This document shows positions 4,398 through 64,000 of a stretch of DNA of 64,000 bases, piece by piece. This DNA comes from Streptomyces sp. NBC_01353. GTDB lineage: Bacteria > Actinomycetota > Actinomycetes > Streptomycetales > Streptomycetaceae. Under the pieces are notes generated by a model that was not told where the DNA came from, made no database searches, and was given only the letters and a program-made list of their open reading frames with translations. Made by a program: the position numbers and the translations under genes. Each line of letters starts with the position of its first letter. Positions within the stretch are counted from its first letter, which is position 1. The stretch spans positions 1,240,001 through 1,304,000 of the forward strand of contig NZ_CP108352.1 of assembly GCF_036237275.1 (NCBI RefSeq), written 5' to 3'.

Positions 4398-5206
4398 GCC
4401 TTGCGCCCCACCCCTGCGAAGCCGGAGAAGGCGTAAGGATCCTCCTCGTCGGCCGGGCTCTCGGGCCGCCAGTCGGGCATGGACACCAGACCCGGCTCGA
4501 CCAGCGGGCAGCCGGCGAAGAAGCGGCTGATCTCGGCGTGCGAGCGCATGACGAGAGGGTTGCGGATGTTCCGGTAGACCCCGACGGTGCCCTCGGCCTC
4601 GTCCTGCGAGAGCGGGATGCCTTCGTAGGAGGCGTGGGTCAGCACGACCAGGCTGCCGGGCGCGAGGGCCTCGACGAGCTCCGCGACGGCCTTCTCGGGT
4701 TCGTCCTCGTCCTCCAGGAAGTGCAGGACGGCGACGAGCAGCAGCGCCACCGGCTTGTCCATGTCGAGGAGTTGACCGACCTCGGGGCTGTGCAGGATCT
4801 GGAGCGGCTTGCGGAGGTCGGCCGCGAGGACGGTGGCGCGGTCCTGGCCCTCGAGCACGGCACGGCTGTGGGCGACGGCGACCGGGTCGTGGTCGACGTA
4901 GACGACTCTCGCGTCGGGGGACGCGGCCTGGGCGACCTCGTGGACGTTACCGAACGTCGGTATGCCCGAGCCGATGTCGAGGAACTGGGTGACGCCGCTG
5001 TCGACGGCGAAGCGCACGGCCCGGCGCATGAAGGCGCGATTCGCCTGCATGATCTTGGGGAGTCCCGGGATGAACTCCATGGCCTTGCGGGCCGCTTCCC
5101 GGTCCACCTCGAAATTGTGCGAGCCGCCCAGATAGAAGTCGTACATACGGGACACGCTCGGCACCGAAATATCGATACCCGGCGGGGCCCAGGCGGGACG
5201 CTCCAT
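4394..5206 (-). CDS. SAM-dependent methyltransferase, Methyltransf_19 (DUF574) family
   Basis: 270 residues. The family opening with PSVSRMYDFYLGGSHNFEVD is present, followed by the SAM-binding loop FLDIGSGIPTFGNVHE and a VYVDHDP acidic strand. This Streptomyces-expanded family has no firmly assigned substrate. The start is set at ATG 5206 because GGAG lies six bases upstream; a TTG at 5221 would add five residues but lacks a ribosome site. Upstream gene of the rmdA operon (4-nt overlap), so it may be co-expressed with c-di-GMP turnover; no mechanistic link is visible. Confidence 0.9.
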   Translation of the reverse strand: MERPAWAPPGIDISVPSVSRMYDFYLGGSHNFEVDREAARKAMEFIPGLPKIMQANRAFMRRAVRFAVDSGVTQFLDIGSGIPTFGNVHEVAQAASPDARVVYVDHDPVAVAHSRAVLEGQDRATVLAADLRKPLQILHSPEVGQLLDMDKPVALLLVAVLHFLEDEDEPEKAVAELVEALAPGSLVVLTHASYEGIPLSQDEAEGTVGVYRNIRNPLVMRSHAEISRFFAGCPLVEPGLVSMPDWRPESPADEEDPYAFSGFAGVGRKA

Positions 5207-6656: not shown

Positions 6657-7205
6657 ATGCTCTTCGGCGTGTCTCTGTACGGATCGTCTCTCGCGCGGCC
6701 CTTGGCGGCCGCCGCGCTGTTGTGGCTCCTGGCCGCACCGGCGCCCGCCGCCGCCGATGCCTGCGCCTACGCCACGACCGGGCCCGGCGGCTCGAACACC
6801 TCGGTCGCGGTCATCGGGCCGGGGGCGTGCTCGCCCACCCCGACTCCTCCCCCGCCGCCGCGACCGGCGCCCAAGCCGACGCCGACGCCGAATCCCCCGC
6901 CGCCACCGGCGCCGCCGCCCCCTCCCGTACGCGCGGATCCCCCGCCCCCGCCGCGGCAGGAGCCCCCCAAGCCCGCCCCGCCGCGGCCGGCACCGGCGCC
7001 CGAGGCTCCCACGCCGCCCGCGCCGTCACCCCCGGCTCCCTCGCTGCGCCCGCGCCCAGCGGCCGCGACCCCCGTCGCTCTGCCCGCGTACCGCCGCGCC
7101 GCGCGGCCCGAACCCAAGAGCGGTCCCTCGCTCGTGTCGATGATGCTGCTTGTCACCGCCCCCGCGGTGCTCGCGACCGCGATCCTGCGCCCCCGCTCCC
7201 GCTGA
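6657..7205 (+). CDS. Secreted or membrane-anchored proline-rich protein
   Basis: 182 residues from ATG 6657 (GTG at 6651 is equally possible). A signal sequence ending about AAPAPAAADA is followed by a short segment with a Cys pair (DACAYA, GACSPT). A roughly 90-residue tract of PxPxP repeats comes next, then a C-terminal hydrophobic segment and an RPRSR tail. The layout suggests a cell-wall-spanning stalk fixed in the membrane at its C-terminus. No catalytic motif is visible. Upstream in-frame codons reach 6489, but they overlap the 5' region of the divergent lipoprotein gene and lack signal-peptide character. The next gene follows after 20 bp, so the two are probably co-transcribed. Confidence 0.7.
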   Translation: MLFGVSLYGSSLARPLAAAALLWLLAAPAPAAADACAYATTGPGGSNTSVAVIGPGACSPTPTPPPPPRPAPKPTPTPNPPPPPAPPPPPVRADPPPPPRQEPPKPAPPRPAPAPEAPTPPAPSPPAPSLRPRPAAATPVALPAYRRAARPEPKSGPSLVSMMLLVTAPAVLATAILRPRSR

Positions 7206-55053: not shown

Positions 55054-55506
55054 TCAGCGGAAGTGGGCGAGCAGCGCGGCTGCCGTGACCGACCCCAGCA
55101 GGTGCGGCCGGTCGTCAGTGTCGTACTCGACGACAGCGACGACGGGGCTGCCGGTCCGGGCCATGACGGCGGCCATCTGCAGGGGTGACGCGTGCGGGCT
55201 GACAAGGGAGAGGGCGGGGCGCCGCCGGGGCAGTACATCGGCGACCGTCAACGCAGCCATGTTCTGGCGGACTTCGTCGTCGAGGCGGCCGGCGATCGCG
55301 GTGGCGCGCAGAGGGTCTTCACGCACCGAGTCGGGCAGGATCCCGGCCAGGAGGTGATGCCCTTCCACGAACGCGACCGGATGGCCCTCGCGGGTCACCA
55401 GCAGGAGGGCGGGCGTCTCCTCGCCGGCCAGGAGCTCGGCGGCTCGGAGCACGGCCTCGTCGGCGGACACGGAAGCGCAACGGCGAGCGAGGTCACGTGC
55501 GTGCAT
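55054..55506 (-). CDS. CBS-domain protein
   Basis: 150 residues. Two CBS motifs: ADEAVLRAAELLAGEETPALLLVTR with FVEGHHLLAGILP, and ADVLPRRRPALSLVSPHASP with VVAVVEYDTDDRPHLLGSVTAAALL. The CBS pair probably binds an adenine nucleotide. ATG 55506 lies 14 nt inside the antiporter gene, so expression is coupled; it may gate or sense for the antiporter. Confidence 0.85.
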   Translation of the reverse strand: MHARDLARRCASVSADEAVLRAAELLAGEETPALLLVTREGHPVAFVEGHHLLAGILPDSVREDPLRATAIAGRLDDEVRQNMAALTVADVLPRRRPALSLVSPHASPLQMAAVMARTGSPVVAVVEYDTDDRPHLLGSVTAAALLAHFR

Positions 55507-56740
55507 GAGCGCTCGCTTCCGTGGTGGTGATCGTTGCGCGTGCCTTTGTCCCCTCGCCGCCGGCCTCGACGATGTCGTCCACGTGGAACAGGCGGGCGAC
55601 AGGGACGTCCGTACTGCTGTGGGCGATGATCGAGAAGGCGATGCATACAGCGATGACGGTGTACGCCTCCTGCCCCTGCGGGATGCCGGCCTGGAGCACC
55701 AGCAGTCCGTAGACGACCGACGCGAATCCCTTCGGGCCGAACCAGGCCGCGACGAGCTTCTCCCGGCGGTCGATCCTCGTACCCAGCAGCGACAGAAGCA
55801 GTGACGCGGGGCGGATCAGCACGATCGCGAGGATCACCGCCACGTACCCGCCGAGAGACAGGTCCCCGAAGAGCTGCGGGGTGAGCAGCGCGCCGAACAC
55901 CAGGAGGGCAGCGAACTTGGCGAGCTCCGCCAGTGACTCGCCCAAGGGCTCGAACGACTTCTGGGACTCGGGTGAGACGGCTGTGAGGACCGCGCCCGCG
56001 GAGAAGGCGGCGAGGTAGGGGTTGGCGTGGGTGAGGTGGCAGGCTGCGTACAGGATGACGCCGATGGCCAGCGGCAACAGGGGCTGGAGCTTGGGCTCGG
56101 CCCCCAGCAGCCGGAACCGTACGAGCCCGCTGACGATCAGCGGCATCAGGACACCGAAGACGAGACCAAGCCCCAGCTCCAGGCCGATCTCCCCGAAGGA
56201 CGCCTCGGCGTGGGGCGAGGTGGGACCGGCTGCGGCGATGAGGATCAGAACGACCGGCAGCGCGAGTCCGTCGTTGATCCCGCTCTCCACGTTGAGGAGT
56301 TCACGCAGCCGGGCCGGGACTTCCTTCCGCCCGACGATCGCCGAGGCGAAGACCGGGTCGGTCGGCGCGAGGACCGCGCCGACGAGGAACGACGTCGTCC
56401 AGTCCAGGCCCACCAGGTAGTGGGTGATCAGCGCCATCCCCACGAACGCGAGCGGCATACCCAGCCCCAACGCCCGCGCCGGGTTGCGCCAGTTGGCCCG
56501 GAGCTTGGCGAAGGAGACGTGCATTCCGTCGGTGAACAGGACGGCGAACAGGGCGAGGTCGGCGGTGACCGACACGATCTCACTGTCGGGAGTGATGTGG
56601 ATCAGTCCGAGGAATCCGTCACTGACCAGTGCCCCGCCAACCAGGAAGAGCAGTGATGTCGACAGAACGGTACGGGCGGCGAGGCCGGAGAGCAGGACTG
56701 CGATCAGCAGCGCGGCCCCGAAGACGGCAACAAGAACCAT
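55493..56740 (-). CDS. Cation:proton antiporter (CPA1, NhaP-like)
   Basis: 415 residues with 12-13 hydrophobic segments. CPA1 signature region FLVGAVLAPTDPVFASAIVG and the NVESGINDGLALPVVLIL segment with the functional Asp. It exchanges Na+ or K+ for protons. Its leader contains a 24-nt element also found before nhaA. Operon with a CBS protein and a small membrane protein. Confidence 0.9.
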   Translation of the reverse strand: MVLVAVFGAALLIAVLLSGLAARTVLSTSLLFLVGGALVSDGFLGLIHITPDSEIVSVTADLALFAVLFTDGMHVSFAKLRANWRNPARALGLGMPLAFVGMALITHYLVGLDWTTSFLVGAVLAPTDPVFASAIVGRKEVPARLRELLNVESGINDGLALPVVLILIAAAGPTSPHAEASFGEIGLELGLGLVFGVLMPLIVSGLVRFRLLGAEPKLQPLLPLAIGVILYAACHLTHANPYLAAFSAGAVLTAVSPESQKSFEPLGESLAELAKFAALLVFGALLTPQLFGDLSLGGYVAVILAIVLIRPASLLLSLLGTRIDRREKLVAAWFGPKGFASVVYGLLVLQAGIPQGQEAYTVIAVCIAFSIIAHSSTDVPVARLFHVDDIVEAGGEGTKARATITTTEASAHART

Positions 56741-57075
56741 GGTGGAAGTCCCCCTGTCGGCACGTGAGAACAGAGAGAGCTCTCCCCCTGCTCGCCGACC
56801 AGGCTTCCCGGCACACCGCTAGCGAACTTACACGCTTCTTACGTGATGTTGGCATGTCCTTGACGGGCAGCCGGAGGCGGGGGTGGTTGCCGGGAGTCGG
56901 CAACGTGCCACTGGTTCGGTCCTCACCGGGGGCAGCCCAGTGATCCTCGACAGCCGCCGTCGAGATCGTCCCCCGATGTCTCCGCACCCCCTCCGAAGCC
57001 CCGGAACAGTGCCCCGCCTGCGAGCACGAGCAGCAGCGCTCCGGTGGATACCTTCACGCAGCCGCTCGCTTCGTG
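56741..57075. other. Gene-free interval upstream of the NhaP-like gene
   Basis: 335 bp that contain the shared 24-nt leader element (56794-56817) and a TAAGAA block (56836-56841). The part from about 56880 to 57075 has no gene, repeat or hairpin that I can support. Confidence 0.6.
56794..56817 (-). promoter_or_regulatory. Shared leader element, copy 1 (NhaP-like gene)
   Basis: In transcript sense it reads GGTGTGCCGGGAAG then CCTGGTCGGC, starting 54 bp before the antiporter start. It can fold as GCCG...CGGC around an inner CCGG/CTGG pairing. A TAAGAA block lies 18 bp further upstream, as in copy 2. Confidence 0.75.
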
Positions 57076-57327
57076 TCATGGCCGGGCAGCGAGGCCGGCG
57101 ACCAGTAGTCCGGCGAGGACCGCCCACGGCATGCTCGCGGGGCCTATCGACGCCCAGCCGATCGCGCCGAGAAGAAGCCCCGCGAACGCACCCACTGCGA
57201 GCGCCCGAGGCTCGCCGAGGAACGCCCACTGCCGTGCCCCGCTCCCGGGAACTCTCAGCTCGTGGACGGCCGTACGAATGACCAGCAGGGCGATGACGAT
57301 CGCCACTCCGAGCACCGCGGATCCCAC
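57076..57327 (-). CDS. Small membrane protein downstream of nhaA
   Basis: 83 residues from GTG 57327. Two to three hydrophobic segments (about 3-18, 42-58, 66-80) and no soluble domain. It starts 5 bp after the nhaA stop, so it is probably co-translated; it may be an accessory or pH-related partner of NhaA. Function unknown. Confidence 0.68.
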   Translation of the reverse strand: MGSAVLGVAIVIALLVIRTAVHELRVPGSGARQWAFLGEPRALAVGAFAGLLLGAIGWASIGPASMPWAVLAGLLVAGLAARP

Positions 57328-57332
57328 AGCCG

Positions 57333-58640
57333 CTACCCCCCGTTCGCCGCGCCGGTAGGCGAGCCGGTCTGGTAGATGTCGGGGATGCCGTCGGCGTCGT
57401 CGTCGCGCTCCTCCTCTTCGTACAGGCGCTTGTAGAGGCGGTTGCGGCGGCGCAGGAGGATGGCTGCCAGGGCAGCGGCGATCAGTGAGCCGACGAGTAC
57501 GGCGGCTTTGATGTGCTCGGCTGTGGCCGGGTCGGGGAAGGCGAGTTCGCCGATCAGGAGGGCGACGGTGAAACCGATGCCGGCCAGGGTCGCGAGTCCG
57601 AAGACATCGGCCCAGGCGAGGTCGGGGTTGAGCTGAGCTCTGGTGAAGCGCGCGGCGAGGTACGTGCCGAGGAAGATACCGAGGATCTTGCCGACGACGA
57701 GGCCGATGACGACGCCGAGAGGTTCGGGATCCGTGAACACGCGGGTCAGCGCGCCCCCTGACACAGTGACGCCGGCGGCGAACAGCGCGAAGAGGGGGAC
57801 CGCCACGCCCGCCGAGACGGGGTGGACGAGGTGCGAGACGCGCGCGCCCGGGGACGCGGCTTCACCCTTGTCGCGGGTGGTGCGCAGAATGAGGCCCATG
57901 GCGACGCCGGCCACGGTGGCGTGGACGCCGGAGTTGTACATCAGCGCCCAGGTGGCGACGCCGAGTGGCACGTACCACCACCAGCCGCGTACCCGGAAGC
58001 GCTGGAGAACGTAGAAGAGAACGAGGCCGGCGAATGCCCCTGCCAGGGCCCAGAAGTTGAGGTCCGAGGTGAAGAAGATCGCGATGATGAGGATGGCGCC
58101 GAGGTCGTCGACGACGGCCAGCGTGAGCAGGAACGCCCTGAGCGCGGACGGCAGATGGGTGCTGATGACCGCCAGGACCGCGAGCGCGAAGGCGATGTCG
58201 GTGGCCATCGGCACGGCCCAGCCGTCGAGCCTTCCGCCGCCCGCGGCGGCAGTGAGCGCATAGAGCGCCGCGGGTACCGCCATGCCGCACAGGGCCGCGA
58301 CGACAGGGAGGGCGGCCGTGGCTGGGGTACGCAGTTCGCCGACGACGAGCTCGCGCTTCAGCTCGATGCCCGCCACCAGGAAGAAGACCACGAGGAGACC
58401 GTCGGCCGTCCAGTGCCCGACAGACAGGTCCAGGCCCAGGGCGGGGATGCCGAAGTGGAAGTCCCGCACGGACTCGTACGCCTCGCTCCAGGGGCTGTTC
58501 GCCCACACCAGCGCGACGACGGCGGCGGCGAGCAGGACGAGTCCGCCGACGGTCTCCGTGCGCAGGGCTTCGGTGACGGCCTGACGTTCGGGCCACGGCA
58601 GCAGTCCGAAGACCACTTTGCGGGGGCGTGCCTGAGTCAC
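57333..58640 (-). CDS. nhaA: Na+/H+ antiporter NhaA
   Basis: 435 residues from GTG 58640; GGAGGT eight bases upstream decides this start over ATG 58661 or 58742. Eleven to twelve hydrophobic segments with NhaA signatures: VFFLVAGIELKRELVVGELR, VVAALCGMAVPAALYAL, PMATDIAFALAVLAVI and VVDDLGAILIIAIFF (the paired functional Asp). Exchanges two H+ for one Na+. Its leader carries the shared 24-nt element. Followed after 5 bp by a small membrane protein gene. Confidence 0.93.
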   Translation of the reverse strand: MTQARPRKVVFGLLPWPERQAVTEALRTETVGGLVLLAAAVVALVWANSPWSEAYESVRDFHFGIPALGLDLSVGHWTADGLLVVFFLVAGIELKRELVVGELRTPATAALPVVAALCGMAVPAALYALTAAAGGGRLDGWAVPMATDIAFALAVLAVISTHLPSALRAFLLTLAVVDDLGAILIIAIFFTSDLNFWALAGAFAGLVLFYVLQRFRVRGWWWYVPLGVATWALMYNSGVHATVAGVAMGLILRTTRDKGEAASPGARVSHLVHPVSAGVAVPLFALFAAGVTVSGGALTRVFTDPEPLGVVIGLVVGKILGIFLGTYLAARFTRAQLNPDLAWADVFGLATLAGIGFTVALLIGELAFPDPATAEHIKAAVLVGSLIAAALAAILLRRRNRLYKRLYEEEERDDDADGIPDIYQTGSPTGAANGG

Positions 58641-58691
58641 GGGAAGGTACCTCCGGGGCATGTCGGCAAACGGGCACACAGGCCCTCGGAC

Positions 58692-58715
58692 GCCGACCAG
58701 ACTTCCCGGCACACC
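58692..58715 (-). promoter_or_regulatory. Shared leader element, copy 2 (nhaA)
   Basis: Differs from copy 1 at one of 24 positions. It starts 52 bp before the nhaA GTG, with TAAGAA 17 bp further upstream (58733-58738), the same layout as copy 1. Confidence 0.75.
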
Positions 58716-58803
58716 AGCATCGTGTTCATGCGTTCTTAACACCCTATCGGGTGGCCGGGGGTCCCACCAGGACGTCTCTCACCTGCTGGAACGCTGGGAC
58801 AGA

Positions 58804-58853
58804 TGAGAGGGCCCGTCCCCCACCAAGGCGCGAGGTGGGAGCGGGCCCTCTCA
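58804..58853 (-). terminator. Hairpin terminator after the AgcS gene
   Basis: Outer 12-bp perfect stem (58804-58815 with 58842-58853) and an inner stem of CCCACC with GGTGGG. It lies 23 bp after the AgcS stop. Confidence 0.85.
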
Positions 58854-58876
58854 GGAACCGGGCCGCCGGGGGGCGG

Positions 58877-60427
58877 TCAGACGGTGGTCTTCACCGGCTC
58901 CTGGTCGGGGTCGGCGTCGGCGTCGGTGTCGGTGTCGAGACCGGCGTCGCGCTTCTTCACGAAGGCGAGGAAGGAGTTCAGCTCCCGCTTGACGACCGGG
59001 GCGAGGAGGTACAGGCCGATGATGTTGATGACGGCGAGCATGAAGAGCACCGCGTCGGCCATGTCGATCAGGGTCTGCAGGGTCAGCAGCGAACCGGCCA
59101 CCGCGAAGAGCGTGTAGAGGACCTTGAAGGTGAACTCGCTGGCCTTGGAGCGGCCGAAGAGGTGGGTCCACGCCTTCATGCAGTAGTAGCCCCAGGTCAG
59201 CACGGTGGAGATCGCGAACAGCATGACCGCGATGGTCAGGATGTACGGGAACCAGGGAAGGACGGTGGCGAAGGCGTCGGAGGTGATGGTCACGCCGCCG
59301 ATGGACTCACCGCCCTTACGGACGTCGACATAGCTGGCCGGGTTGGCGATGACGATGGTCAGCGCGGTCATGGTGCAGATGACGACCGTGTCGATGAACG
59401 GCTCGAGCAGGGCGACCAGGCCCTCGCTCGCGGGGTGCTTGGTCTTCACCGCGGAGTGGGCGATCGGGGCGGAGCCGAGACCGGCCTCGTTGGAGAACGC
59501 GGCCCGCTTGAAGCCGATGATCAGCGCGCCGAGGACACCGCCGGCGACGCCCTGAGGGTTGAAGGCGCCCTCGATGATCGTGGCGATCGCGGCGGGGACG
59601 GCGGTGACGTGGACGGCGATGACGACGAGGCAGGCGGCGATGTAGATGCCGGCCATCGCCGGGACCAGCTTGCTGGTGACCGAGGCGATGGAGCGGATGC
59701 CGCCGAGGAGCACGATGCCGACGAGGGCGGCGATGAGGATGCCGAAGAAGAGCGCGCCGGCGGAGGAGCCCAGGGCGCCGTTCTCGCCGCCGGTGACGGA
59801 GACGAGCTGGGCGTAGGACTGGTTGACCTGGAAGAGGTTGCCACCGAACAGGCCGAAGAACAGGATCATGAACGAGGCGAGCACGGCGAGAACCTTGCCG
59901 AGCGTCTTGCCGTTCTTACCGAAGCGCTCGGCCAGGCCCTTGGGCAGGTAGTGCATCGGACCGCCGGAGACGGTGCCGTCGGCGTGGACCTCGCGGTACT
60001 TCACACCGAGGGTGACCTCGACGAACTTCGTCGCCATGCCGAGCAGGCCGCAAAGGATCATCCAGAACGTGGCGCCGGGGCCACCGATGGAGACGGCGAC
60101 GGCCACACCGGCGATGTTGCCGAGTCCGACCGTGCCGGATACGGCGGCGGTCAGCGCCTGGAAGTGGTTGACCTCACCGGCCGACCCCTTCTCGTCGTAC
60201 TTGCCCCGCACCACGTTCACGGCGAGCTTGAACTTGCGCAGCTGCACGAGGCCGAACCAGCCGGTGAAGACCAGACCCGCGACGACGAGCCAGGCCACGA
60301 TGAGGGGAAGCTCCGTACCCCCGACGGGAACGGAGTAGAAGACGACCTCGCCCAGCCACTTGGCTATGGGCTCGAAGAAGCCGCTGACGGCCTTGTCGAC
60401 GGACTGGGTGAAGGAATCGAGTGACAC
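58877..60427 (-). CDS. Alanine/glycine:cation symporter (AgcS family)
   Basis: 516 residues from GTG 60427. About 11 hydrophobic segments; AgcS blocks FQALTAAVSGTVGLGNIAGV, GGPGATFWMILCGLLGMATKFVEVTLGVKYR, GPMHYL and GFKRAAFSNEAGLGSAPIAH are all present. Imports alanine or glycine with Na+. The acidic tail DTDTDADADPDQE is unusual. Monocistronic, with its own terminator; no copy of the shared leader element lies upstream. Confidence 0.92.
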   Translation of the reverse strand: MSLDSFTQSVDKAVSGFFEPIAKWLGEVVFYSVPVGGTELPLIVAWLVVAGLVFTGWFGLVQLRKFKLAVNVVRGKYDEKGSAGEVNHFQALTAAVSGTVGLGNIAGVAVAVSIGGPGATFWMILCGLLGMATKFVEVTLGVKYREVHADGTVSGGPMHYLPKGLAERFGKNGKTLGKVLAVLASFMILFFGLFGGNLFQVNQSYAQLVSVTGGENGALGSSAGALFFGILIAALVGIVLLGGIRSIASVTSKLVPAMAGIYIAACLVVIAVHVTAVPAAIATIIEGAFNPQGVAGGVLGALIIGFKRAAFSNEAGLGSAPIAHSAVKTKHPASEGLVALLEPFIDTVVICTMTALTIVIANPASYVDVRKGGESIGGVTITSDAFATVLPWFPYILTIAVMLFAISTVLTWGYYCMKAWTHLFGRSKASEFTFKVLYTLFAVAGSLLTLQTLIDMADAVLFMLAVINIIGLYLLAPVVKRELNSFLAFVKKRDAGLDTDTDADADPDQEPVKTTV

Positions 60428-60799
60428 GGTGGGGACCTCAGTACGCAGGACCGGCGCGCGGGAGGCAGCGCCAGTGGGGAGTGCGGTCTGTGAGCGAACG
60501 CCGTTGTCCGATCAGCGACGCGAGGTGTCGACGTCCGCGGACTCGGAGCGTGATCACCTTGGTCGTGCAGGCCGGTGTGTGCCGGCGGCTCCACGAGGCG
60601 GCGATGGGTTGGTGCCACCTGCGAAGTTGCGCATTCCTACCACGCCCCACCTGCTGCGTCGTGTGGCGCACCTCACACAACGGAAGGTGATCTTCCGAAA
60701 GCCCAGCAAGCGTGACCCGACCGTTATCCGAACACGTACCTCCGTTCACAGGACACTTATTTCCGCAGGTCAGTAGCGCGCAGAGCTACGCACATGTCT
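60428..60799. other. Gene-free interval upstream of the AgcS gene
   Basis: 372 bp with no supported coding sequence on either strand. The end near 60428 should hold the AgcS promoter. No strong hairpin or repeat was recognised. Confidence 0.5.
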
Positions 60800-61075
60800 T
60801 CAGGTGCCATGAAGGGACCCGCGCCGGAGCCGTCCGAGAGGAGCCAGAGCCAGTCCGAGCCCGAAGCGTCCTGTGCGGGTCCGACGGAGCTCGATGTCAC
60901 GGTTCACGATCGACGTGACGCGACGCGTGACGTCGACCTTCCGCATCTTGGACACGATCAGTGCCTTGCCCTGTTCCACCTTGCGGAACAGCCGGCTGAG
61001 CACGAACAGGAGGGTGAAGGTGACGAGCAGGGCGACGGCGACGAGCCCGCCGATGCCCACGGTGATGGCATCCAT
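60800..61075 (-). pseudogene. Flotillin (SPFH) gene, truncated
   Basis: 91 codons. MDAITVGIGGLVAVALLVTF, then LFRKVEQGKALIVSKMRKVDVT match the membrane anchor and first SPFH strand of Streptomyces flotillins; at residue 50 the sequence jumps to RRVTSIVNRDIELRRT and a basic tail, ending where about 480 residues are usual. The SPFH and coiled-coil regions are missing. GAGGA lies upstream, so the stub may still be translated. Confidence 0.75.
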
Positions 61076-61138
61076 GAGAAGTCCTCGGGTGAGGTGAAGT
61101 GTGGTGGGCGGAAGCCCGGAAGAGCACGACCGACGGAG

Positions 61139-61540
61139 TCAGGTCAGGTCGGCGACGTCTTCCCGGGAAGGCCCGGGTTCGTCAGGGAAGAGCGCGGCAA
61201 GCGGTCGTACGAGGCGACGCGTCACACGCCAGGAGACGAAGGGCGCGAGAAAGAGCAGGAGCAGGGAGAGCAGTGGGGGCAGAGCGCCTGGCAGAGCGGC
61301 AGCTGCGAGCAGCACGGCGCCGGACAGGCTCAGAAACCAGCCGACGGCGACGAAGATCGAGGCCGCCACCGCGACGGGCAGACCGGCGAGGTGCAGCGCG
61401 TCGGTGTCCACGTCGGAGTCGAACGCGTCACAGCCCGCCGCACCACAGAGCACCAGCAGCCAGAAGCCGACGACCACGACCAGCGCCGCGGTCAACAGCA
61501 GCGTGGGGAATCCGAGGGCGGCGTTCAGCAACTCCCCCAT
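61139..61540 (-). CDS. YqiJ/NfeD-like membrane protein next to the flotillin remnant
   Basis: 133 residues. Four hydrophobic segments (about 12-34, 53-72, 72-90, 90-106) separated by an acidic stretch (CDAFDSDVDTDA). The form matches the membrane half of YqiJ-like proteins encoded beside flotillins, without the C-terminal OB-fold. The flotillin it should partner is truncated 63 bp downstream, so the pair may be non-functional. Confidence 0.72.
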   Translation of the reverse strand: MGELLNAALGFPTLLLTAALVVVVGFWLLVLCGAAGCDAFDSDVDTDALHLAGLPVAVAASIFVAVGWFLSLSGAVLLAAAALPGALPPLLSLLLLFLAPFVSWRVTRRLVRPLAALFPDEPGPSREDVADLT

Positions 61541-61766
61541 GGCCTACCCCCTGACGCGTGACAGCTTCCGGCCCCGGCATCGGCTCTCCATCCACACCCC
61601 CGGCAGGCCCATCGTGGCACCGCGAGTGCGCCTCGCACATTGCCGTCGTCCGGCAGTCTTTACGCCTTCTTGATGCCGGTGGCAGCCCCTCGTTGGAGCC
61701 ATGTCACCCTTGGTCTCCGCGCGTCAGGAACTCGTCAACGACGCAACGTGAATTCGGGGAGGGCCC

Positions 61767-62828
61767 GTGACGGAACGGGAGTCGGCCGAGGAGTACCTGG
61801 AGGGGTACGCCGAGATGCTGAAGGGCGTCTGCGTCACCGGACGAAGGCTGACCCGTGAGGAGCTGGAGGGGCTGCGGGCCCGCGGCGAGCGGGCCGCGGA
61901 GGCCGGCATGGGTCTGCGCTCTCTCGTCCGCGCCCACCTCTCCGCCGCGAGGACGACCAACTCCGAGCTGTCGCAGGGGGCTCACGACCATCTTCTGGCG
62001 GCCGTCGAGCAGGCAGTCGACGCTTTCGCCGAAGGGCACGAGCGGGCACAACGTCTGGCGGTACGTCAGGAAGAGGCGGCGCGACGCGAGTTCATCGACG
62101 ACCTGCTGTATGGACGCAGCGATCTCGGCCGCCTGGCCGAGCGCGCCGAACGCTTCGGGCTGCTCCTCTCCCACGCCCACGCCGTGGCCGTCGCCCAGGG
62201 GCCGGAGCCGTACGCCGACGGATACCCGGTCTCCCGCAGCGTCGAGTCCTCGCTCGTCGCCCGCTTCGGCAACCGGCGCATCCTCCTCACGACCAAGGAC
62301 GGCCGGCTGATCTGCGTCGCGCCCGCCGACGAGCCCGACGTGCTCACCCACTTCGCCAAGCAGGCGTATGCCGCCACCGACGGCGGCCAGGTCGCGATCG
62401 GCCGCCCCCACTCCGGAGCGGGAGGAGTCGTCCACTCCTACGAGGAAGCCCTCAACGCGCTCGACCTCGCTGCCCGCATGGACCTGAACGACCCCGTCCT
62501 GCACGCCGCGGACCTCCTGGTCTACCCCGTCCTCACCCGCGACCGGCAGGCCATGGCCGACCTGGTCCTCAGCGTGCTCGGCCCACTCCAGCAGGCCCGC
62601 GGCGGCGCCGAGCCACTCCTGGACACCCTCACCGCGTACTTCGACAGCGGCTGCGTGGCCGCCGAGGCCGCCCGACGCCTCTCCCTGAGCGTCCGCGCCA
62701 TCACGTACCGGCTCGACCGCATCCACCGGCTGACGGGCGCCGACCCGGGCGACCCCGCCCAGCGCTACACCCTCCAGACCGCCGTCGTCGGAGCCCGCCT
62801 CCTTGGGTGGCCCGACCAGGAACTCTGA
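61767..62828 (+). CDS. PucR-type transcriptional regulator
   Basis: 353 residues from GTG 61767 with GGGAGG five bases upstream. N-terminal helical sensory region (1-100), GGDEF-like central region (about 110-270) and a C-terminal PucR helix-turn-helix: LLDTLTAYFDSGCVAAEAARRLSLSVRAITYRLDRIHRLTG. Its target is not evident; the divergent or adjacent ion-transport genes are candidates by position. Confidence 0.88.
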   Translation: MTERESAEEYLEGYAEMLKGVCVTGRRLTREELEGLRARGERAAEAGMGLRSLVRAHLSAARTTNSELSQGAHDHLLAAVEQAVDAFAEGHERAQRLAVRQEEAARREFIDDLLYGRSDLGRLAERAERFGLLLSHAHAVAVAQGPEPYADGYPVSRSVESSLVARFGNRRILLTTKDGRLICVAPADEPDVLTHFAKQAYAATDGGQVAIGRPHSGAGGVVHSYEEALNALDLAARMDLNDPVLHAADLLVYPVLTRDRQAMADLVLSVLGPLQQARGGAEPLLDTLTAYFDSGCVAAEAARRLSLSVRAITYRLDRIHRLTGADPGDPAQRYTLQTAVVGARLLGWPDQEL

Positions 62829-62905
62829 CCACTGGGCACATCGCGGCCGCGCAGGGCGGGCAGACTGACCGTAGGAGTTCCTCAGCAGCGGCGGAGGGGG
62901 TCACG

Positions 62906-63208
62906 ATGAGTCACCCCGCAGACGACGAGCGCATCCTTGCCGGCATGGAGCGCGAGCTCACACACGACGACCCCGCCCTCAGCGCCACGATGGAGACACT
63001 GAACCAGCAGTTCCCCGAGCAACCGGAGCGGCCTGCGAAGGCTCGCCTTCCACGGCGCGACCCCCGACTCGTGACAGCGGTCGTCCTGGCCGTCATCGCA
63101 GTGCTGGCGCTGATCCTGACAGCCGCCCTGAACACAACGCCCGCGCCACCCGACGGGGAGGTCACCCGGCCGGCGGCGCATTCCGCCGTGGTGAGCACGC
63201 ACCAGTGA
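62906..63208 (+). CDS. DUF3040-like membrane protein
   Basis: 100 residues. The N-terminal helical region has DDERILAGMERELTHDDPALSATMETL, close to the DUF3040 family start; a basic stretch precedes a hydrophobic segment (about 54-74), and the C-terminus is Pro/Thr-rich. ATG 62906 fits. Family function unknown. Confidence 0.78.
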   Translation: MSHPADDERILAGMERELTHDDPALSATMETLNQQFPEQPERPAKARLPRRDPRLVTAVVLAVIAVLALILTAALNTTPAPPDGEVTRPAAHSAVVSTHQ

Positions 63209-63250
63209 TCGAGTTCAGCGACGCTTCGACCGCGAGAAGCGCGCCAAGTG

Positions 63251-63274
63251 ACCGACCAGACTTCCCGGCTCACC
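63251..63274 (-). promoter_or_regulatory. Shared leader element, copy 3 (orphan)
   Basis: Two differences from copy 2 in 24 bases, one keeping the GCCG/CGGU stem by a G-U pair. Same strand as copies 1 and 2, but it lies 18 bp after the KtrA-like stop with no minus-strand gene following it. The TAAGAA block is absent. Confidence 0.65.
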
Positions 63275-63291
63275 AGCAGTGGACCCAGCGG

Positions 63292-64000
63292 TCAGGGCAG
63301 ATCTGTGAACGCCTCCACGGCCTGGGTCTTGCCCGTGACCACGATGATGTCGCCCTTCTCGACGACCGTCTCGGCGGTCGCGTAGGTGAAGTCCTCCCCG
63401 GGCCGCTTGATGCCGACGACGGTCACGCCGTACTCACTGCGGACCCGGGAGCGTCCTAGGGGCTGTCCAGTGGCCACGCTCGGGGCGATGGTCTTGACGA
63501 GGGCGTAGTCGTCGTCGAACTCGATGAAGTCGAGCATCCGGCCGGTGACGAGGTGAGCGACCCGCTCGCCCATCTCGTGCTCGGGAAGGACGACGTGGTG
63601 GACGCCGAGACGTTCGAGGATCTTACCGTGCTGGCGGCTGATCGCCTTGGCCCAGATGTTCGGGACGCCGGCTTCGAGGAGGTTGGAGCTGACCAGGATG
63701 CTGGCCTCGATGTCGGTGCCGATGCCGACGACGGCGCTGGTGAACTCATGGACACCGAGCTGGCCCAGGACGTCCGGGTCGGTGGAGTCGGCGACGACGG
63801 CGTGGGTGAGCAGGTCGCTGTACTTCTGGACGAGGCGGGCGTCGGTGTCGATGCCGAGGACGTCCCAGCCCCGGTGCATCAGCTCGTTGGCGAGGGAGAA
63901 TCCGAAGCGGCCGAGACCGATGACGGCGACACGTTGGTCCGTCGCTGTCTGGTGCTGCTCGGTCAGCCGCTGGCGTCGGCGCTTGCGCAGGTTGTGCAGG
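63292..64000 (-). CDS. KtrA/TrkA-type K+ transport regulatory subunit (5' end outside window)
   Basis: 236 residues in the window, open to the edge. RCK_N domain with VAVIGLGRFGFSLANELMHRG (GxGxxG), Asp in LGIDTDARLV, and VVADSTDP; then an RCK_C domain (about 160-236, GVTVVGIKRPGEDF) that binds c-di-AMP in relatives. It gates a KtrB/TrkH-type channel, expected upstream to the right of the window. Confidence 0.88.
   Translation of the reverse strand, partial: LHNLRKRRRQRLTEQHQTATDQRVAVIGLGRFGFSLANELMHRGWDVLGIDTDARLVQKYSDLLTHAVVADSTDPDVLGQLGVHEFTSAVVGIGTDIEASILVSSNLLEAGVPNIWAKAISRQHGKILERLGVHHVVLPEHEMGERVAHLVTGRMLDFIEFDDDYALVKTIAPSVATGQPLGRSRVRSEYGVTVVGIKRPGEDFTYATAETVVEKGDIIVVTGKTQAVEAFTDLP

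Follow-up and report, generated by a model that had tools for sequence, protein, structure and literature searches.

Why does one 24-nt sequence recur, always in the same orientation, around the cation-transport genes of a streptomycete? The question is posed by a 64,000-nt stretch of Streptomyces sp. NBC_01353 (contig NZ_CP108352.1, positions 1,240,001 to 1,304,000), here called the window, in which three copies of an element readable as GGTGNGCCGGGAAGYCTGGTCGGY lie on the minus strand. An earlier reading made from the letters alone (the sequence-only reading) had located these copies and offered three explanations: an undescribed cation-responsive riboswitch, a site for an RNA-binding protein, or a shared operator. 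In the computational analysis that followed, cation-transport genes were indeed found at most sites and the proposed stem was found to carry compensatory changes; a riboswitch is plausible beside the other two options, and cation sensing is a guess. The reading that we prefer, if tentatively, is that of a 5′-terminal cis-regulatory RNA of ion homeostasis, in which a short hairpin would alternate with a competing stem to form a very small ON switch.

Distribution of the element and the genes that follow it

All three copies were confirmed on the same strand, where none would be expected by chance (shuffling the window 100 times with its dinucleotides preserved gave 0); relative to copy 2, copy 1 has one mismatch and copy 3 has two. 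In the whole 8.57-Mb genome, five sites were found at up to three mismatches, and a reversed pattern found none at that threshold. Three of the five precede nhaA genes, one precedes a CPA1 antiporter gene, and the fifth is copy 3; moreover, the element adjoins all three of the NhaA matches that a Pfam search detects in this genome.

The element is also widespread beyond this strain. Of 296 genomes sampled across the phylum, 82 have it at up to two mismatches, and 2 match the pattern when it is reversed as a control. The covariance search of actinobacterial genomes that had been proposed as a check, run with a model built from 44 variants, found it in 43 of 149 genomes and revealed no wider, diverged family, returning near-consensus sites with none under 35 bits at an E value of 0.001. 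Among 246 genomes of the class, at least 163 matched a looser pattern made of the loop alone, which has a visible background. At least 119 element-bearing stretches come from named genomes, and all are labelled Actinobacteria except two contigs of Chloroflexi metagenome-assembled genomes (L043 and L123; here and below, L and G numbers denote loci and genomes), one of which has a PP2C phosphatase gene downstream of the element. These two occurrences could possibly reflect horizontal spread or a binning error.

In order to define the downstream gene set, 201 sites (at most two mismatches) were collected from 190 fetched loci, leaving 194 after duplicate removal; this sample is biased, having been gathered by motif searches and containing many Streptomyces loci. 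First downstream genes were grouped by BLAST, and each cluster was named after a Pfam scan of one or two of its members. The next gene encodes NhaA at 106 sites and a CPA1 antiporter at 17, confirming the placement ahead of Na+/H+ antiporter genes, and is followed in frequency by CBS-domain (11), Mrp-type (8) and DrrA-type ABC (6) genes and by APC-type permease genes (4), the last a weak name, since of the two representatives scanned, one gave nothing in Pfam and the other matched AA_permease_2 only below its cut-off. Three clusters of three (PPDK, an alpha/beta hydrolase and DUF6653), 20 singletons and 13 sites without a cluster complete the set. Ion roles recur among the singletons, which include a CitMHS_2 protein (read as NhaD-like), TrkH, an H+-pyrophosphatase, a Na/Ca exchanger and a TrkA_N protein; one further site (L122) precedes a STAS gene. 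Scattering near unrelated genes, which would have counted against the sequence-only reading, is not the pattern found, the neighbors being mostly ion genes, and no transposon or terminator family was seen, though no search was aimed at one. From this gene set, Na+/H+ balance is the natural signal to propose. Finally, in a motif-independent sample (the 30 best-scoring of the NhaA matches in 60 genomes, fetched without the motif), the element lay upstream in 16 of the 30 loci.

The proposed hairpin and its distance from a probable −10 box

A TANNNT hexamer, resembling a −10 box, ends 5–9 nt before the first GG of the element at 137 of the 194 sites; 96 hits fall at a spacing of exactly 7 nt, as against 6 or fewer at any spacing above 9 nt. 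Column profiles of 168 sites show this box and little other upstream conservation, and it is absent at 57 of the 194 sites, four of which (L002–L005) are among this genome's five. It is this box, rather than the TAAGAA block that the sequence-only reading had joined to the element, that constitutes the conserved upstream feature. Given its place 5–9 nt ahead at so many sites, the element is probably the first transcribed stretch, the initial ~24 nt of the mRNA, and we infer that its first base is the transcription start (+1).

A 5′-terminal position invites several explanations. One is that the hairpin merely stabilizes mRNA at its 5′ end and carries no signal, a role to which the likely placement is well suited; mere stability, however, requires neither a mostly narrow set of ion genes nor an almost invariant loop, and we regard this as very improbable. 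Another is that the element encodes a short, near-leaderless peptide (GUG-NGC-CGG-GAA-GYC-UGG-UCG) regulating by attenuation or coupling. Although a GTG does occur beside the likely +1 at 142 of 181 sites, the other 39 have GAG, GCG or GGG, third codon positions are nearly fixed (CGG at 190, GAA at 193 and TCG at 192 of 194 sites), and this frame reaches a stop no more than 5 nt from the gene start in 15.5% of cases, versus 10.5% for each other frame. With neither a conserved start codon nor synonymous variation, the leader peptide or attenuator was rejected and is hardly credible. A third explanation, considered further below, is a DNA operator or an initially transcribed promoter element spanning +1 to +24 and read by a transcription factor or RNA polymerase, which would account for the fixed distance to the −10 box.

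The consensus of the element is 5′-GGNGN-GCCG-GGAAGYCUGGU-CGGC, in which a GCCG:CGGC helix, termed P1, encloses an almost invariant 11-nt loop. This stem had been noticed in the window, where copy 3 indeed retains it through a G-U pair, and compensatory changes now support it at three of its four pairs. In searches in which one stem base was forced to differ while its partner remained free (296 genomes for each), arm changes were compensated in 3 of 3 cases at pair 1-17 and in 2 of 3 at pair 2-16, or 5 of 6 overall. The 3′ arms of 11 further variant sites were also considered, nine of them read out directly and those of G092 and G162 taken from the 296-genome search. Four sites of one genus (G419, G458, G150 and G484), each with a −10-like box, have changed G-C to U-A at pair 0-18, perhaps in a single event, as they share a genus and similar upstream sequence; at pair 1-17, the variants are U-A in G231, G-C in G028 and U.G in G162. 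The U-A loci at pair 0-18 (L225, L226, L227 and L228) have in common an upstream CTGAAAGTT-like block together with the −10-like box.

A stem alignment was made from 44 of 130 distinct 28-mers, chosen by hand and excluding the doubtful broken-loop sites L061 and L065. All of its cells (100%) pair in P1, two pairs show double changes, and the value was reached by none of 500 shuffles; a control slid by +3 columns scores slightly above P1 (0.072 versus 0.068), yet it pairs 59% of cells. An alternative hairpin, GCCGG:CUGGU, forms the minimum-energy core of the isolated element, but it shows zero compensatory changes and was rejected. Covariation thus lends modest support to a conserved P1, modest because the variants are few and some are related. 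The lack of covariation that would have counted against an RNA structure was not what was found.

Compensated arms would also suit a DNA operator, and by reading, the centre AG-Y-CT with arms GCCG and CGGC does form an imperfect DNA palindrome. What such an operator would not lead one to expect is that the non-palindromic spacer be conserved as strongly as the arms (most spacer columns lie inside the search patterns), nor the behavior of the pair flanking them. Leaving the −10 box aside, no columns of the scanned leader covary more strongly than those of this pair (−1/19), just below P1. Among 213 sites at up to two mismatches, after six weaker ones were dropped, the closing pair is U.G at 97, C.A at 57, A.A at 15, U-A at 13, A.C at 8, U.C at 8, A.G at 7, C.C and U.U at 3 each, and C-G and C.U at 1 each, so that the symmetric combinations, C-G (1 of 213) and U-A (13 of 213), are shunned. 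Both U.G and C.A occur within ten genera. As U.G and protonated C.A wobbles are isosteric, the pattern would fit an RNA helix; in double-stranded DNA it is hard to explain. A palindromic transcription-factor operator, with symmetric half-sites and a free spacer, is therefore matched only in its arms, the spacer being conserved and the closing pair asymmetric.

There is also a hint, by no means established, that the 5′ tail may touch the loop. In 4 of 4 fetched loci with G for U at loop position 11 (L011, L012, L205 and L207), position −3 is C or A; G042 and G251, as counter-cases, keep T.

A possible competing stem, a candidate mechanism and known leader RNAs

The most enriched 5-mer after the element is CGACC, the complement of the element's own GGUCG, found at 80 of 168 sites compared with 26 expected. 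Of 157 leaders, 61 contain it; its density is 11.3 per kb versus 2.6 per kb for the 372 5′ regions used as controls, and its median distance from the start codon is 17 nt, while GGTCG is depleted in the leaders (1.4 versus 2.8 per kb in controls). An excess of one strand's motif and a deficit of the other's fit RNA pairing and not a DNA site. Across 142 leaders, the 3′ arm is predicted to pair downstream with a mean probability of 0.82, compared with 0.60 in shuffles. A competing stem in a subset of leaders is thus supported; its regulatory sign is weakly supported by the folding models, and inspection by eye of arm-variant sites found nothing clear in the way of matching competing-stem changes. 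With the one-strand complement added to the asymmetric closing pair and the conserved non-palindromic loop, an RNA element is favored, and the DNA operator appears rather unlikely.

The preferred ON-switch reading can now be given as a mechanism. With a U.G or C.A wobble-like pair beneath it, P1 would display the 11-nt loop, while in many leaders the 3′ arm (GGUCG) could pair instead with CGACC immediately ahead of the ribosome-binding site. P1 would be stabilized by an effector, for which our best guess is some signal that Na+ and H+ are out of balance, for instance Na+ itself. The competing stem would then dissolve, and more translation of the antiporters and related ion genes would follow; translational control and its sign are likewise inferred. 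The element would then plausibly be a riboswitch, and a very small one.

The same hairpin could instead be the site of an RNA-binding protein through which ion-homeostasis mRNAs are controlled at the level of translation or decay, with no sensing by the RNA. Short hairpins with an almost invariant loop are typical of protein sites, and P1 covariation and +1 placement fit such a site equally well. It would also accommodate the 96 of 157 leaders in which CGACC is missing, a number that led us to reject a universal downstream expression platform. The enrichment of CGACC, on the other hand, indicates an RNA–RNA switch in at least a subset of leaders, and no candidate protein is known, none having been searched for. 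All in all, we consider a protein site unlikely, though it deserves to be kept in mind.

Several observations weigh against the ON-switch reading, beginning with those same 96 leaders. The isolated 25-mer folds preferentially as GCCGG:CUGGU, P1 not being its minimum-energy structure, and energy folding of whole leaders gives P1 a probability near zero; when forced, P1 opens the ribosome-binding region only slightly (from 0.41 to 0.46). Some arm changes are uncompensated: a G.G at pair 2-16 in G520, a change at pair 0-18 in G092, and the arms of G429, G468 and G096, sites that have no −10 box and perhaps match by chance. In the motif-independent sample, 14 of the 30 NhaA loci have no element, the covariance model finding nothing better there than an E value of 0.24. 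Some sites precede genes without an evident ion role (a methyltransferase, a glycosyltransferase, an acyltransferase, PP2C and SpoIIE), and 24 nt is unusually small for an aptamer.

As the sequence-only reading had supposed, no riboswitch class in Rfam matches the element. Rfam 15 gave no match at gathering score in the window and only two tRNAs in 20 further loci, while a relaxed scan (to an E value of 10) of positions 56500-63500 returned three matches far below the family cut-offs, none of them nhaA-I, nhaA-II or DUF1646. These alkali-cation riboswitches resemble the element in their location at antiporter genes, but their covariance models do not match it. The ydaO (cyclic di-AMP) riboswitch controls K+ transporters elsewhere, and the present element precedes some K+ transporter genes; the ydaO model, however, is unmatched in the window and in the 20 further loci.

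In the literature, Li+-I leader RNAs are described as most often associated with nhaA genes, as here, but the probed construct 73 nhaA has its own stems P1 and P2, unlike this 24-nt element with one hairpin; the word Actinobacteria is absent from the main text of that paper (PMC9646797). The DUF1646 motif (the Na+-I riboswitch) is likewise reported with Na+-relevant genes (PMC9337991), although its Rfam model does not match the element. The nqrA-II and dauA candidates are orphan leader RNAs, nqrA-II being Na+-related and dauA preceding STAS genes in Streptomyces; compared by description alone, their four stem-loops and three-stem junction, respectively, are unlike the element, and the main text of that work, which searched Streptomyces avermitilis, does not contain the word antiporter (PMC11109978). 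No published description of the element was found by sequence or word search (a 2017 survey of 224 candidates lay outside the scope, with Rfam standing in for it), and none appears in the accessible portions of PMC8632094, PMC9646797, PMC9337991, PMC12892944, PMC2864571, PMC3087709 or PMC11109978. Leader RNAs of cation genes are a known kind, within which we rate the element as a new class that stands out by its size and its 5′-terminal placement.

Transcription factors may act on the same nhaA gene too. The nhaA gene SCO3564 of Streptomyces coelicolor is said, citing earlier work, to be involved in the alkaline-stress response (PMC12892944). In Streptomyces venezuelae, the SCO3564 orthologue appears in a table of nitrogen-limitation-induced genes and in a section on a glnR mutation (PMC3087709), and it is this listing that suggests such additional control.

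The NhaA, CPA1, Mrp, NhaD-like, K+ and proton-pump genes that share this one short element make up a phylum-wide regulon that can be put to the test. To our knowledge, the control of Na+ and pH homeostasis in Actinobacteria, including antibiotic-producing streptomycetes, is poorly understood. Should the RNA alone be the sensor, a very small aptamer would lie at the extreme 5′ end of these mRNAs; should a protein read it, a new RNA-binding regulator of ion balance would be indicated. A bolder and doubtful proposal is that of a 24-nt riboswitch for Na+ (or Na+/H+ balance), flush with the transcription start and widespread in Actinobacteria. If true, few natural sensors would be as small. Built of a U.G/C.A closing pair and an 11-nt purine-rich loop, it would have under its control K+ uptake, proton pumps and antiporters that belong to several unrelated families.

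The copies in the window and their surroundings

The distances from the element to the antiporter genes hold in the sequence, at 53 nt from copy 1 to the CPA1 start (56740) and 51 nt from copy 2 to the probable GTG of nhaA, as do those of the TAAGAA blocks, 18 and 17 nt upstream of copies 1 and 2.

Table 1. Copies of the element and associated features in the window (positions counted from the first nucleotide of the window).
Feature	Position	Strand	Remark
CBS-domain-like gene	55054..55506	-	PF00571 just under curated cut-off; overlaps end of CPA1 gene
CPA1 Na+/H+ antiporter gene (PF00999)	55493..56740	-	Pfam
GCCGAC, complement of GUCGGC in copy 1, possible competing stem	56756..56761	-	CGAC, not CGACC
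Copy 1 (GGTGTGCCGGGAAGCCTGGTCGGC)	56794..56817	-	leader of CPA1 antiporter gene
TAAGTT, probable -10 box	56825..56830	-	ends 7 nt before copy 1; by TANNNT rule
nhaA (PF06965)	57333..58640	-	GTG start (58640) chosen by reading
GCCGAC, complement of GUCGGC in copy 2, possible competing stem	58662..58667	-	CGAC, not CGACC
Copy 2 (GGTGTGCCGGGAAGTCTGGTCGGC)	58692..58715	-	nhaA leader; TANNNT box absent at usual place
Copy 3 (GGTGAGCCGGGAAGTCTGGTCGGT)	63251..63274	-	orphan by appearance; without -10 box
ktrA-like gene (TrkA_N, TrkA_C)	63292..63999	-	truncated by window end; stops 17 nt before copy 3

Copy 3 is not equivalent to copies 1 and 2, since it lacks the TANNNT box and no convincing same-strand gene lies just downstream, where only a doubtful 106-aa frame, matching no other downstream gene, could be found; it looks like an orphan. 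Its position after a ktrA-like gene was as the sequence-only reading had it, but the link to a K+ regulator drawn from it is weak precisely because the copy follows that gene. In another genome of the same genus, the element does lie ahead of a ktrB-like gene (by reading) and a ktrA relative. Tandem copies occur in genome G128, 325 bp apart before a ktrB-like/ktrA pair (L222:4291-4314 and 4616-4639) and 504 bp apart before a CPA1 gene (L223:6545-6568 and 7049-7072).

Window positions 55054-63999 resemble an ion-homeostasis island, with the CPA1, CBS-like, NhaA and ktrA genes accompanied by a probable Na+/alanine symporter at 58877-60427, the latter identified by reading only.

Several of the element-free NhaA genes in the 30-locus sample (L197, L198, L202 and L217) sit in longer frames of 631-688 aa and may represent a fused NhaA type, which is only a hint, as the element-bearing L215 is also long (1051).

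Upstream blocks differ among taxa. Copies from Nocardia, Amycolatopsis and Lentzea have one resembling CTTTACGGCATCTTTACGCG (L048, L056, L098, L126 and L145), whereas Streptomyces copies have an extra block resembling TGTAAAGAACGCGTCAAG, which is the TAAGAA block (56836-56841 and 58733-58738 in the window; also L005, L034, L064, L130 and L122). The Streptomyces block is probably a separate promoter or operator, and any tie to the way in which the SCO3564 orthologue is controlled in relation to glnR would be speculation.

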